From positions 1 through 64,000 of the forward strand of contig JAISYI010000022.1 of the NCBI GenBank assembly GCA_031269995.1: a DNA stretch of 64,000 nt, given 5' to 3'. The notes below the pieces were generated by a model. It had not been told where the DNA came from, ran no database searches, and saw only the letters and a list, made by a program, of their open reading frames with translations. Source of the stretch: Holosporaceae bacterium. Its GTDB lineage: Bacteria; Pseudomonadota; Alphaproteobacteria; UBA3830. This document shows positions 6,145 to 10,689 of the stretch, piece by piece. The position numbers and the translations under genes are program-made. How positions within the stretch are numbered: position 1 is the first letter of the stretch; each line of letters begins with the position of its first letter.

Positions 6145-7428
6145 CTATGAGCAGACATGGACAGCGTTCCCGCCGCTCTCTTTAGCCACATACATAAATT
6201 TGTCCGCGATGGAAATTGCCTCCTGTAGAGATATTTTCCCCCCTGGATCGACACAACAAACCCCAATACTCATCGTACAACGAGCGTCATAGTATAAGGA
6301 TTCCCCTATTTTTTTCTGAATTCTATTGGCAATGTTTTTGGCGACATGCTTTGTTACGTTACCCATCAGCACGATAAATTCGTCTCCCCCATACCTTGCA
6401 ACCATATCCAATGATCGCGTATGTCTTTTTATCATGCCAGCAACGTATCTGAGCATGGAATCAGCAAAAGAATGCCCGAACCTATCGTTTATCGTTTTGA
6501 ATTTATCCACATCCAGCAAGATAACAGCAAAACCTTCTGCCTTACATTCCATATTCTTTAAATAATCGTCGAAAAAAGAACGATTATATACCTCTGTCGT
6601 GGAATCTACCGTAGATAGATGTAAACTTTTCTTTAGTTTTTTGCAAAAAGCCTCCTGAAGTTTTTTATACTTTATCAGGGAATTTAGTCGACATCCGATC
6701 ACAAATGGATTGTCGTTTACGTCAATGATATCTGTGAACCCGACGGCTTGTTCTCGAGCTAGGTCAATTTTTTCCTGGCAGAATTGGTCAAATGTAAAGA
6801 CTATGGGTTTATGATGATTGATTTTTCTCAGGCGCAGATTTGCACAACACTCGTGCGCCTGGGTATGACTCATGTTTATTATAAAAATGTCCGCATCGCT
6901 TATATTATCTATTACAGGCCATGACATCAGCATGGTTACCTCAGTATTTTCCAATATACTTTTGGGAAGAAAGTTAATATTATTGTAAAAAATTGTGACG
7001 ATCTTTTGAGCATTATGTTTCTCCAGAAACATATTACTAAGCAAACTATCATCGAACAGATTTTTTAACCGTACCAGGGTTTCGATCCTTCCAGCCAGAC
7101 TTAGGCTATCCATGCCAATGTGAAGAACATCGTCTAATACTATTGGAGGAATCTGTTGATTCGGAGACTCTGCTAGTCCGATTATCGGTATAACCCCGCA
7201 TAGCTGTCTCAGCAATGCAAAAAAATCCAACAGCAATTTAGGGGATCCTTCAGAGACACGTTCAGGAATCGAGAGAAGAACTGCATCGATAAATTGCGTA
7301 CCAACGATCCTTAGGGCATTCTCTACGGATCGCGCAAATAATAATGAATAGTACAGATCCTGAAGTTTTGAGACAACAGGAGCGATATCCAGCTTATCAT
7401 CGTTAACTACCAATACTCTAGCAACCAT
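6145..7428 (-). CDS. pleD: PleD-like diguanylate cyclase with two degenerate receiver domains
   Basis: Response-regulator diguanylate cyclase that makes c-di-GMP. About 427 residues in Caulobacter PleD order: receiver 1 (about 1-120), receiver-like 2 (about 140-265) and GGDEF (about 270-427). The output looks functional: LLDVDKFKTINDRFGH, GGDEF at 347-351, and an inhibitory RxxD site at 338-341. Receiver 1 has Ser at 53, where Caulobacter PleD has the phosphorylated Asp53, and lacks the KP lysine motif. The ATG at 7428 is used; it overlaps the divK stop by 11 bases, so the pair forms an operon. Convergent with the carboxypeptidase gene at 5164. Confidence 0.93.
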   Translation of the reverse strand: MVARVLVVNDDKLDIAPVVSKLQDLYYSLLFARSVENALRIVGTQFIDAVLLSIPERVSEGSPKLLLDFFALLRQLCGVIPIIGLAESPNQQIPPIVLDDVLHIGMDSLSLAGRIETLVRLKNLFDDSLLSNMFLEKHNAQKIVTIFYNNINFLPKSILENTEVTMLMSWPVIDNISDADIFIINMSHTQAHECCANLRLRKINHHKPIVFTFDQFCQEKIDLAREQAVGFTDIIDVNDNPFVIGCRLNSLIKYKKLQEAFCKKLKKSLHLSTVDSTTEVYNRSFFDDYLKNMECKAEGFAVILLDVDKFKTINDRFGHSFADSMLRYVAGMIKRHTRSLDMVARYGGDEFIVLMGNVTKHVAKNIANRIQKKIGESLYYDARCTMSIGVCCVDPGGKISLQEAISIADKFMYVAKESGGNAVHVCS

Positions 7429-7819
7429 ATGCCCTACTCTCCACACACGTAAGTACGGATTCCACGAATCTATCAAGAGAAACAGGCTTTGTTAAGAATA
7501 CGTCAAGCATTTCTGAAAGTTTTTCTTTATATTTGAGGTTGTATGCAGATAATCCTATGATAGGTATCAAACCAGAGACCCCTTCAAATTTCATTTTGAA
7601 AAGAAGTTTTTTTAGGAAAGTTTCCTCTGCAACCTCTGTATTTATTACCACCAAGTCTTGTTCTGTTTCTTTAACTTTCATCAATCCATCCATTGCGGAT
7701 CTTGCCAGATAAACGTCGAAGCCATGGGCAGACAGAACATCCTCGTATAACTTGCAGTGCAACGGATCTTTTTCAATTAGCACCGCTGATTTTTTAAACA
7801 GGTTGGCCTGCATTTCCAC
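7418..7819 (-). CDS. divK: DivK-like single-domain receiver lacking the phospho-acceptor Asp
   Basis: 133-residue receiver-only protein immediately upstream of pleD, the same arrangement as the Caulobacter cell-cycle operon. The CheY-like fold is clear (AVLIEKDPLH, LSAHGFDVYLA, IPIIGLSAYN, FLTKPVS). An ungapped comparison with remembered Caulobacter DivK places Asn60 at the phospho-acceptor Asp53 and Lys17 at Asp10 of the acidic pocket. The conserved Lys of TKPVS remains. It therefore probably cannot be phosphorylated in the normal way and may act as a constitutive protein-protein switch. The assignment as divK rests on fold and context rather than on conserved catalytic residues. Confidence 0.8.
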   Translation of the reverse strand: MEMQANLFKKSAVLIEKDPLHCKLYEDVLSAHGFDVYLARSAMDGLMKVKETEQDLVVINTEVAEETFLKKLLFKMKFEGVSGLIPIIGLSAYNLKYKEKLSEMLDVFLTKPVSLDRFVESVLTCVESRAYGC

Positions 7820-7969
7820 TTCTCAAACCTTAATAAATAATGAATTTAAGAATAAATAGTTAATAAAAAGTTACTAATTCGTCAGAAAAGTATGTAAATC
7901 CGGCCGGCAATCCCTAAAAGCTTACGATTGTTGCTGAAACCGCAACGATAAAGAGGAAATAATCGAAGA

Positions 7970-9460
7970 TTAGTACGGCAAATGCAGCGACCGCGGGATA
8001 GACATTTCTATTACCCCGTCCTGCCCGAATGGCACAGTGGATAGTTCTCGTCCGCAGGGATCGAATACGGCGCTGACCCCAACGTTGGCGACCCGAATCA
8101 GTGGCACTCCAGCCTCAATGGCCCTGGCCCTGGAAATTTGCAGATGTTGAGCAGGCTCGCTGGTAAAGCCGAACCATCCATCGTTAGTGATATTCACGAT
8201 AATATCCGTTTTAGAAAAATCCGGCGAAGAAAACAGGCCTAATTTTCCAGGAAAAATCACCTCATAACAGATAGCCAGCAATATCTTTATACCGCCAATT
8301 TCTATTAAATTTGATTCACTACCAACATTAAAATCCCCAATATCGCTAGCAATACTCTGAAATAATGGAAAATACTTACGAAGAGGAATGTACTCTCCGA
8401 ATGGGGTTAACCTGGCTTTGTCGTAGTGGGCGACATGTTTTCCAGTATGATCGATGAAGATCACACTGTTGAAAATCTTTCCTGTTTGGAGATCTTTCCT
8501 GACTGCTCCTGCCAACAGATATTCATCAGCAAGTAAGGGTATTTTGAGATAATTATGCAATCTAGTAAAATCTTCATTATAGAGGTAGGGAACTGATGCT
8601 TCGGGCCAAATGACTAAATCCACTTTTTTGCTATGAGCACTCAGTCGTAGAAGTTTTTTTAGGTTGGAATAGGCAAAAGCCGAGTCATTTTTTTGTTCCT
8701 GCGAAATATTTGATTGAATTATCCGTACCCTTTTGTCCGTGTATATTGTTGGATTGCGCGCAAGCCGCCAGTATCCAAATAATGTAATTGCGGCAAAAAT
8801 CACGAACGCAATAAGTACCGGACCCCAAGCAGCTGCTTTTCCTCTCCTCCTTGCTGGCAGCGCCACGTACAAAAGAAAAGCATCGCCAAGGAGCCCTGCC
8901 ATAAGTAGAGTGCTAAAACTCAGTCCGTAAATTCCGTACAAGCAGAGAGTTTGCAAAAAAATCTCGTGGCAACACCATACATACCCTGGCAGCACCCATG
9001 GAAATCCTGGCAGATAATTTCCATAAAACATCATGGTAAGAGTAAAAAACGTAGCAAAAGCAACGGGAAGGAGGCGGTAAAATGACAACCTTGCAGACTT
9101 ACGAAACCAGTTGCTTAACATCCTTAATCCGCAAATAGGCAGAAGCAGAAACATGGACAGATATATAGGAATCAGCAGTATTGCGAATGGAATTAGAATC
9201 CCATGAACCGCTAGATCCAATGTTAATGGATAGACCAGCCAATATAGGCATCCAATGTGTAGACAGCAAAAGAAACAGAATGGTTGCAGAAGCCATTCCT
9301 TCGCGTTGCCTCCTTCACATATCCTCACAAATAGCCATGCAAACGTCGCAAGAAATATCGGAAACACGTTAAAAGGTGCAAATGAAAGCGCTGTAACGGC
9401 TCCCAGGAATCCGCTTTTGGCGAATTGGCGCTGGTTGGAGATCCTGCCGCTACTTTCCAT
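7970..9460 (-). CDS. lnt: Apolipoprotein N-acyltransferase Lnt
   Basis: Inner-membrane enzyme that N-acylates the N-terminal diacylglyceryl-cysteine of lipoproteins, the last step of maturation. About 496 residues: several N-terminal membrane helices (residues about 15-225), then a periplasmic nitrilase-like domain. The catalytic triad is visible: Glu in WPEASVPY, Lys in YDKARLTPFGEYIP and Cys in ICYEVIFPG. Its substrates here could include BamD, the secretin, RlpA and the small lipoprotein at 50.8 kb. The ATG at 9460 is preferred over a TTG at 9469; either way the 5' end overlaps the dcd paralog stop by about 10 bases. Confidence 0.95.
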   Translation of the reverse strand: MESSGRISNQRQFAKSGFLGAVTALSFAPFNVFPIFLATFAWLFVRICEGGNAKEWLLQPFCFFCCLHIGCLYWLVYPLTLDLAVHGILIPFAILLIPIYLSMFLLLPICGLRMLSNWFRKSARLSFYRLLPVAFATFFTLTMMFYGNYLPGFPWVLPGYVWCCHEIFLQTLCLYGIYGLSFSTLLMAGLLGDAFLLYVALPARRRGKAAAWGPVLIAFVIFAAITLFGYWRLARNPTIYTDKRVRIIQSNISQEQKNDSAFAYSNLKKLLRLSAHSKKVDLVIWPEASVPYLYNEDFTRLHNYLKIPLLADEYLLAGAVRKDLQTGKIFNSVIFIDHTGKHVAHYDKARLTPFGEYIPLRKYFPLFQSIASDIGDFNVGSESNLIEIGGIKILLAICYEVIFPGKLGLFSSPDFSKTDIIVNITNDGWFGFTSEPAQHLQISRARAIEAGVPLIRVANVGVSAVFDPCGRELSTVPFGQDGVIEMSIPRSLHLPY

Positions 9461-9980
9461 TTTCGACAAAATCTAAATACATCTTTGAAGTAATCGGACC
9501 AGCCGCGTTCCGGTAACGTCCCTCATATTTTTGTATCTCTCCTAGAGGCTTCCAGAAGGTGACCTGGCCAATCTGTATGCCTGGGTAGATAGTGACTGGC
9601 TGCACAGCGTTCAGCTGTAACGTTAGCTGATTAATCGATCCTATGTCAATCAAATCGGCGGTAATATTGATGAATAATCCCAATCTGCCTATGGATGAGC
9701 GTCCCCTAATGATTGGAACAAAATAATCGCTGCCAATGATCTCCAGCGTATGTCCGAGATACACCGTTCCGGTGGCAAGTGTAATCCCATCGTCAGGAAT
9801 GAGTATTTCGCGGGCTTCATTGTTTTTTTTTGCATCAAGAATGTAGTTATTATAGACTAATAGTTTATTTCCCAGAGTAAAATTGTATGAATTCGGATTA
9901 ATCTGGGAGCTGTTGAACGGATCCACTATAATTTTTCCATTTTCCACGTTTTTAAAAATTTCCATACCTGTTAATATCAT
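9450..9980 (-). CDS. dcd: dCTP deaminase family protein, copy A (catalytic Glu replaced by Gln)
   Basis: Member of the trimeric Dcd/dUTPase fold family that deaminates dCTP to dUTP, supplying dUTPase. 176 residues, of the Clostridia/Bacteroidetes-like MILTG...NPNSY subtype. It keeps the LGN motif (residues 36-38), GRSSIGRLG (93-101) and the C-terminal IGQVTFW. At the position of the E. coli catalytic Glu138 (LEF/LEI motif) it has Gln122 (LQL). It starts in an ATGA overlap with copy B, so both are made from one message. Copy A may be inactive alone or may act with copy B; this is inference. Confidence 0.82.
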   Translation of the reverse strand: MILTGMEIFKNVENGKIIVDPFNSSQINPNSYNFTLGNKLLVYNNYILDAKKNNEAREILIPDDGITLATGTVYLGHTLEIIGSDYFVPIIRGRSSIGRLGLFINITADLIDIGSINQLTLQLNAVQPVTIYPGIQIGQVTFWKPLGEIQKYEGRYRNAAGPITSKMYLDFVENGK

Positions 9981-10516
9981 GTTTCTTTACCACCTGTAGA
10001 AAATTCCCTATAAATCTCGCTCGATTTAGCTACGGAAAATTTGTCGTATTTGCCGTTGTATTTCATGTCAGCATTCCCGCTGGTATCCCAAAAAGTAACT
10101 TGCCCGATCCGCATCAATGGATAGATCCTAATCGGCTGAACAGCTTTTAATTCGAGAGTCCACCTGTGCTTTGCGCCGAGGTTTCCGAGGTCCGCGGTAA
10201 TCTGCAGGAACAGCCCCAGTCGGCCAAGAGACGTTTTGCCTATCAGTGACGGAACAAATACATCGCTTCCTATTTCCTCATAGGTATTTGCCAAATATGT
10301 CTTGTTTGGAGACAAAACATACCCATCATCAGTCAAATTGATTTCATGGTAGGAGGATTGCTTTTTTGGGTCAACGGGCAGATCCACCAGCTCCAACAAT
10401 TTGCAATCTATATGATAATCATAGCTGTTGGGATTCAGCATAATTTCATCAAACGGAAATATGCTGATATTTCCATTTTTTACGTTATTGAAGATCTCTA
10501 TCCTGGTTAGGATCAT
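9977..10516 (-). CDS. dcd: dCTP deaminase family protein, copy B (altered GRSS motif)
   Basis: Second Dcd-family paralog, about 179 residues, alignable to copy A without gaps over its first 130 residues. It keeps the catalytic Glu122 (LEL), but the family motif GRSS is GKTS (Lys94, Thr95), removing the usual Arg-Ser pair, and the LGN loop is altered to IDC. The ATG at 10516 gives the same MILT start as copy A and has GGAAGAAG upstream; a TTG at 10534 is possible. The ATGA overlap couples it to copy A. It could be a divergent subunit, a regulatory paralog or a decaying gene. Confidence 0.8.
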   Translation of the reverse strand: MILTRIEIFNNVKNGNISIFPFDEIMLNPNSYDYHIDCKLLELVDLPVDPKKQSSYHEINLTDDGYVLSPNKTYLANTYEEIGSDVFVPSLIGKTSLGRLGLFLQITADLGNLGAKHRWTLELKAVQPIRIYPLMRIGQVTFWDTSGNADMKYNGKYDKFSVAKSSEIYREFSTGGKET

Positions 10517-10689
10517 TAATGTTTCTTCTTCCAAATTACCTTCGGACCCGATCTATCAGATTTTGCAAGGTACGACAATAGATCTATTCATCGGGAATCG
10601 CCCAGTAAAGATAGAAATAGCCAAATAAAATCTCTGTATTTTTAACCGATACACCATAAGTGCTACCCCAATAGCTGTATTAATTTTAA

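Follow-up and report, generated by a model that had tools for sequence, protein, structure and literature searches.

A DivK-PleD signalling branch without its usual phospho-acceptor residues in the family of a Holosporaceae bacterium

In a Holosporaceae bacterium and its relatives, a DivK-type signalling branch has lost the residues that would ordinarily accept phosphate, on its receivers and on its presumed kinases alike. The acceptor loss, the conservation of these proteins elsewhere, the operon that joins a divK-like to a pleD-like gene and the promoter box ahead of it are all read from the sequence. Taking these features together, we lean towards viewing the branch as a docking network that would operate free of phosphotransfer, controlled by protein amount and by c-di-GMP feedback.

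The window, that is, the whole stretch of 64,000 nucleotides analysed here (contig C22:1-64000), belongs to an 848-kb genome assembled in 24 contigs and 93.7% complete. A genome search recovered a related PleD in 37 of 40 genomes from its family, this one included, and 38 rows drawn from these 37 genomes make up the PleD family alignment; a scan of genome contigs returned a single related genome, a Holosporaceae MAG with 59% PleD identity. The window also carries a tandem pair of dCTP-deaminase-like genes (9450-10534, minus strand), scoring 93.0 and 72.0 bits against a curated cut-off of 92.8.

A DivK-like receiver without the acceptor aspartate

The divK-like gene (7418-7819, minus strand) encodes a single receiver domain, as judged from sequence, Pfam and phmmer. 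It reads as 133 aa from a GTG at 7819, and the start conserved across the family is an ATG at 7813 (131 aa). Its product scores 23.8 bits against Pfam Response_reg, below the cut-off of 30.2, and finds its best solved-structure match by phmmer in Caulobacter DivK (1m5t, E 3.6e-10). The alignment sets N60, encoded by AAT at 7640-7642 (minus strand), on the acceptor D53, and E16-K17 on E9-D10, bearing out the original prediction that Asn60 stands at Asp53 and Lys17 in the acidic pocket.

Across the family the acceptor column is Asn in all 34 DivK copies and Asp in none, a count that excludes L044, whose DivK protein is identical to that of L020 (G006). Of the acidic pair, position 9 is Glu in 34/34 copies and position 10 is non-acidic in 34/34 (Q, K, N, S or R). 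The column of the switch Thr holds Ser in every one of the 34, and that of Lys105 holds Lys in 33, the remaining copy being cut off there. Over 29 copies, 23 columns are invariant, among them E16, N60, S91 and K111, and L24, Y25, D27 and L29 of alpha-1 are likewise invariant in these copies; the pocket looks as if it were still in use, with an asparagine inside. A switch locked on by a basic residue at D10, as in CheY D13K, was considered and set aside as not general, K or R occurring there in 12 of 34 copies and Q in 18. In EpsW, the equivalent D10-type basic change failed to activate the protein (PMC4671073, consulted in part).

The structure model (pLDDT 77.5, moderate) adopts a receiver fold in which N60 is the final residue of strand beta-3, the place of the acceptor. 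A match to DivK 1mb0 covers its first 98 residues (Z 10.8, rmsd 2.8, 87 aligned), although other receivers score as high against the model; the Foldseek match is modest, and the C-terminal third fits crystal structures poorly. Alignment and model thus both describe a pseudo-receiver, a predicted receiver fold from which the acceptor Asp is missing.

A PleD-like cyclase whose first receiver has no acceptor aspartate

The pleD-like gene (6145-7428, minus strand) encodes 427 aa from an ATG at 7428 and, by phmmer, profile and model, comprises a pseudo-receiver 1, a receiver-like domain 2 and a GGDEF cyclase. This ATG is the first M in most relatives, stops lie inside the frame listed for many of them, and it appears to be the better start. 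The REC-REC-GGDEF architecture is confirmed by the structure model described below, together with a match to the NCBIfam PleD profile NF007135 spanning residues 17-440, at 174.9 bits and under the curated 474-bit cut-off. The original prediction had Asn9 in place of Asp9 and Ser53 in place of Asp53 in receiver 1, and phmmer against Caulobacter PleD agrees: in numbering from the ATG at 7428, N9-D10 falls on D9-D10 and S53 on D53 (N25-D26 and S69 in the longer frame). The codon of Ser53 is TCG at 7270-7272 (minus strand). In the 34 copies that reach this domain (L039, L049, L051 and L052 stop short of it) the acceptor column reads S 21, A 4, T 3, F 2, C 2 and V 2, and never Asp.

An Asp lying in truth a few residues away, hidden by misalignment, would undo these readings. 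The pairwise alignment of PleD receiver 1 to Caulobacter PleD is weak when taken alone (6.3 bits) and leaves some room for such a shift. Family alignments, profile matches and models nevertheless agree on the site: no Asp occupies the column in 34 PleD or 34 DivK copies, and S53 closes strand beta-3 of the PleD model just as N60 does in that of DivK. The PleD model has a pLDDT of 89.5 and aligns over its full length to PleD 9g86_B (Z 30.1, rmsd 11.2, 415 aligned). We regard misalignment as ruled out by the family alignments and the structure models, and would give it next to no weight.

The catalytic half of the protein is kept, as had been foreseen. The GGDEF active-site motif (residues 347-351; 6376-6390, minus strand) occurs in 38/38 family rows, the R and D of the RxxD product-inhibition (I) site, here RSLD (residues 338-341; 6406-6417, minus strand), likewise in 38/38, and the metal-binding LLDVDKF is retained. 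PleD is the sole GGDEF protein detected in its own genome. On the evidence of these alignments, control of the c-di-GMP cyclase must lie elsewhere than in phosphorylation.

The four class outgroups used for DivK and PleD (L055-L058) retain Asp in both proteins. In the sister family f2, Ser replaces Asp in PleD receiver 1 in two genomes (L053, L054), and the DivK-like protein at L053 seemingly keeps its Asp and has lost the acidic pair; given f2, the loss in PleD receiver 1 may be older than the family and the change of the branch may have begun earlier. A second, shorter PleD copy (L052; genome G004, contig C81) has a frame of 343 aa, and no divK was detected alongside it.

Presumed kinase-like partners without the acceptor histidine

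When all HATPase_c and receiver matches in the genome were read, five kinase-like proteins were found besides GyrB: two hybrid kinases with both His and Asp, and three proteins without the acceptor His. The first of the three is of PleC/DivJ type (PAS-HisKA-HATPase, 787-aa frame), with N at the His position. In the family this column reads N 27, V 4, S 2, I 1 and T 1, with His in 0 of 35 copies (36 of the 37 genomes scanned gave a match, and an N-terminal fragment in G028 was excluded); the outgroup PleC/DivJ-type kinases aligned have His in 9/9. Pfam recognises HisKA and HATPase_c, and the ATP boxes (N, G1, G2) are complete in 35/35. The protein matches the profiles of DivJ (2e-35) and PdhS (3.6e-30), and the generic kinases TorS and HrmK score higher.

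The second, a DivL-type protein of 822 aa with I at the His position, has DivL (4q20, E 8.1e-22) as its best solved match. Its acceptor column holds T 17, I 8, V 4, L 1 and A 1; neither His nor Tyr occurs in the 31 family copies, as against Tyr in 4 of 12 outgroup rows at the Tyr550 column, and the ATP boxes of the family copies are eroded. These 31 stem from matches in 33 of 37 genomes, G005 (a fragment without the helix) and G021 (a split gene) being excluded. The third protein, a receiver-kinase (receiver-HisKA-HATPase, 411 aa), carries N for Asp and Q for His. Family copies have Asn for Asp in 31/31 and Q 26, N 4 and R 1 at the His column (His 0/31), with the ATP-binding boxes retained and the acidic pair kept in most copies; in sister family f3, Asp is present in 3/3 and His in 2/3. 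Of the 37 family genomes scanned, 7 yielded no receiver-kinase. Next to the receiver-kinase gene, in divergent orientation, another gene (L063:535-2829, minus strand) encodes a protein of 765 aa that combines TPR-like repeats with a putative cyclase domain of class III (Guanylate_cyc, 31.2 bits).

The original prediction had expected the partner kinases to be absent if the pathway were decoupled. Instead, PleC/DivJ-type, DivL-type and receiver-kinase proteins are present and conserved, without the acceptor His, and the alignment of orthologs reveals losses fixed across the family, hence wider than two genes in one genome. Published base rates, as given in the part of PMC12632262 consulted, are 2.0% for receivers without Asp and 0.9% for HisKA domains without His. 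Because these rates are low and the acceptor losses are fixed throughout the family, the losses exceed what chance would supply.

Phosphate might still enter the branch by another site, or Asn might be deamidated to Asp in the finished protein. The strict fixation of Asn in DivK and the receiver-kinase would suit either idea, as would the Glu, Ser and Lys kept in the DivK pocket and the largely intact acidic pair of the receiver-kinase. Yet the donor His is also gone from all presumed partner kinases read, the acidic pair of DivK is broken (K, Q, N, S or R at D10), and deamidation cannot make Asp from the S, A, T, F, C or V of PleD receiver 1. We consider this explanation highly improbable.

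Conservation around the lost sites

In the PleC/DivJ-type kinase the neighbours of the lost His are S, E, K and P in 35/35 copies each and T in 34/35; in the receiver-kinase, S, E, L, K, N, P and L are each found in 31/31. The His column is thus one of few variable columns within a near-invariant helix. In the DivL-type protein the T next to the lost His is replaced by E, D or G. Median dN/dS, taken over pairs with dS of 0.05-1.5 that are few and non-independent, is 0.22 for DivK, 0.13 for PleD receiver 1, 0.05 for GGDEF, 0.05 for the PleC-type kinase core, 0.04 for the DivL-type protein and 0.06 for the receiver of the receiver-kinase; PleD receiver 2 is under the weakest constraint (0.42).

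These values bear on the view that selection has been relaxed during genome reduction, so that the branch is decaying and its missing residues are early steps towards loss. A reduced genome of 848 kb, the receiver-kinase missing from 7 of 37 genome scans and the eroded ATP boxes of the DivL-type protein all fit such a view. It is opposed by the survival of all five proteins, which share some 35-75% identity and show low dN/dS, by the invariance of GGDEF and I-site, and by the fixation of one residue, Asn, in DivK (34/34) and the receiver-kinase (31/31), which is unlike drift. Pseudogene decay is disfavoured by the low dN/dS together with the open frames. Since the docking residues near the lost sites are invariant and dN/dS is low, we conclude that the branch is not decaying, and relaxed selection, already disfavoured, seems to us quite improbable.

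The conserved helix also brings in the main rival to a docking network, namely that the PleC/DivJ-type protein and the receiver-kinase are kinase-dead phosphatases acting on CtrA or on the CckA receiver and regulated by DivK and PleD. The E-x-x-T/N residues are tied to the phosphatase activity of HisKA proteins, and they are kept beside the lost His in the PleC-type protein (E 35/35, T 34/35) and the receiver-kinase (E and N 31/31 each), both of which retain their ATP-binding boxes. Against this, Asp is missing from DivK and PleD, the natural phosphatase substrates, we know of no other cognate receiver for either protein, and the T of the phosphatase motif is gone from the DivL-type protein. 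The literature cuts both ways: in the part consulted, PMC12632262 holds His not to be essential for HisKA phosphatase activity, and argues that such activity is not general among pseudo-kinases. We judge the phosphatase explanation unlikely, though deserving of attention.

The operon and a CtrA-like box

The end of divK and the start of pleD overlap by 11 nt (7418-7428, minus strand), as expected of an operon; most relatives overlap by 11 to 50 nt, and the two genes are also adjacent in the four class outgroups. A terminator-like site after pleD was not above chance.

The motif TTAA-N7-TTAA is associated with CtrA. About 60 nt upstream of divK, a motif scan and the family alignment locate a candidate box, GTAAC-N6-TTAAC (7859-7874, minus strand). 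With at most one mismatch, TTAA-N7-TTAA occurs upstream of divK in 31 of 34 family loci against 13.6 expected; exact matches number 5 of 34 against 1.4 expected, and the copy in the window has one mismatch. The box lies 53-79 nt ahead of the divK start in 30/34 loci, and the element [GT]TAAC-N6-TTAA stands out, aligned at one place, in upstream DNA that has otherwise diverged. It is short and AT-rich, and its single occurrence in the window equals the one expected by chance. Ahead of ctrA itself, a similar box is present at 6 of 15 loci of the family and at 4 of 5 from outgroups. It is likely, judging by this pattern, that CtrA controls the divK-pleD operon through the candidate box. The suggestion that the cyclase is controlled by its level, made in the original prediction, gains support from the conserved box and the retained I-site.

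Intact phosphorelays in relatives

Five family genomes, each at least 95% complete (G010, G013, G015, G016 and G020), served as a census, in which 30 of 44 HATPase and 30 of 43 receiver matches were made into loci; part of the remaining matches was covered by other readings of the DivK-branch loci and the CckA/CtrA set. Outside the branch, His was present in all 16 HisKA-type kinases read (CckA 5, NtrY 5, hybrid 4, a further type 2) and Asp in all 23 receivers read (CtrA 4, NtrX 5, CckA 5, REC-PP2C 5, LqsR-like 4); the CtrA receivers come from four of the five genomes, and NtrY, NtrX and LqsR-like are names that we presume from architecture and sequence. By these controls the damage is confined to the DivK branch.

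Of 30 family genomes, 26 encode CtrA-type winged-helix proteins, 28 an EAL protein (at two loci in G006) and one a PilZ protein, PilZ being considered here as a c-di-GMP receptor. In the 93.7%-complete assembly that holds the window, CckA, CtrA, NtrY, NtrX and an EAL phosphodiesterase were not found, through either an assembly gap or real further loss, and the proposed output is visible in relatives only. Around the tyrosine of CckA that is probably the c-di-GMP site, by residue identities that we take to be those of the characterised protein, relatives are partly conserved: the Tyr stays, Lys becomes Asn and Trp becomes Phe. Control of CckA by c-di-GMP through this tyrosine (compare PMC5189948, consulted in part) would be no more than a candidate here.

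The genome itself holds paralogous hybrid kinases with a long N-terminal region without assigned domain and with His and Asp kept (L059:2352-4730, plus strand; L060:3739-6117, minus strand), and a receiver protein (L005:940-1953, minus strand) that presumably resembles LqsR. The three may form its own working two-component system.

The original prediction had the cell-cycle input cut off and c-di-GMP synthesis kept. The loss of the phosphorylation input and the retention of the cyclase hold in the alignments; to speak of a severed link to the cell cycle goes too far, because the branch has conserved its docking surfaces and its relatives possess an intact CckA-CtrA. A phosphate-free connection of the branch to the cell cycle may persist.

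A proposed mode of action

Because acceptors are absent from the receivers and the presumed kinases, phosphate cannot be the ordinary means of signalling in this branch. Still present are the docking surface and the dimerisation helix, the cyclase, the I-site, the operon and the promoter box; two of the three kinases also keep ATP binding. We propose that an ancestral DivK-PleD-PleC/DivJ-DivL phospho-branch was converted on the stem of the family, docking being kept and phosphate transfer lost. The DivK pseudo-receiver, with its conserved Asn pocket, would bind the dimerisation (DHp) helices of the three His-less kinases, which would serve as scaffolds or allosteric sensors and not as kinases; DivL offers a precedent for such a pseudokinase (PMC4211667, consulted in part).

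PleD would make c-di-GMP independently of phosphate. Its output would be set by the amount of DivK and PleD, the operon probably answering to CtrA through the conserved box, and also by partner binding or by dimerisation through the pseudo-receivers; RxxD product inhibition and, in most relatives, a single EAL phosphodiesterase would limit the c-di-GMP formed. As the probable output of the branch we see the intact CckA-CtrA relay, by analogy with Osp, the nearest case examined by experiment, which inhibits CckA in Rhodobacter. Here the binding, the direction of control and the link to CckA are what we infer. The simplest reading combines dosage with docking and makes CckA-CtrA the output. That the whole branch (two receivers, receiver-kinase, PleC/DivJ-type and DivL-type proteins) signals by dosage and docking without phosphotransfer at the usual sites, feeding both CckA-CtrA and a c-di-GMP loop, we advance more tentatively, as a serious possibility falling somewhat short of even chances.

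If true, this would be a natural case of receivers and presumed kinases jointly abandoning phosphorylation while under selection. Joint loss of acceptors amid fixed His surroundings would mean that evolution can separate docking from phosphate transfer, and suggests that parts of the CtrA network are able to work through protein amount alone where the genome is very small. The family also offers testable protein pairs and a natural phosphate-free DivK.

Comparison with known systems

In the open-access literature, at the level of titles and abstract openings, no whole branch losing its acceptors together was encountered. In its main text, a 2025 Holosporales review never mentions two-component systems, CtrA, histidine kinases or c-di-GMP (PMC11909080).

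The closest known system is the Caulobacter DivK-PleD-PleC/DivJ-DivL branch upstream of CckA-CtrA, which consists of the same kinds of protein. Caulobacter PleD shares the REC-REC-GGDEF architecture, the active site and the I-site, and Caulobacter DivL is likewise without His. There, however, DivK, PleD and PleC/DivJ are phosphorylated (PMC4211667, PMC12632262; both consulted in part), whereas the branch described here is without any acceptor residue. DivL itself (PDB 4q20; PMC4211667, in part) resembles the present proteins as a kinase fold reused to sense a receiver protein, with Tyr for His; yet it reads DivK~P, and here DivK is without the usual phosphate site and two further kinases are His-less.

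Osp of Rhodobacter sphaeroides is an unphosphorylated receiver-like protein that inhibits CckA and whose gene is activated by CtrA (PMC9430884, in part). Like the DivK-like protein in the role proposed here, it is a single-domain, phosphate-free receiver-like protein acting on the CckA system. Osp has D51 and is without the acidic pair and Lys, whereas this DivK has Asn at the acceptor; and Osp, by the same partial source, stands alone, the Rhodobacterales being without DivK and their DivL short, whereas this DivK is accompanied by a linked cyclase and by three kinase-like proteins presumed to be its partners.

Among reduced endosymbionts, Wolbachia has PleD, and in strain wOo the PleD receiver is broken and carries Asn where Asp would stand (PMC4426382, in part). 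In that account wOo is alone in this, with a split gene and a pleC annotated as pseudogene, while nearly all strains keep the Asp and DivK is absent. Aspartate-less receivers show the same acceptor loss and are treated as single domains in the part of PMC12632262 consulted, which also calls the working mode of pseudo-receivers an open question; here, by contrast, receivers and presumed kinases lost their acceptors together, and the losses are fixed through one family. Pseudo-receivers and pseudo-kinases as such are already known.
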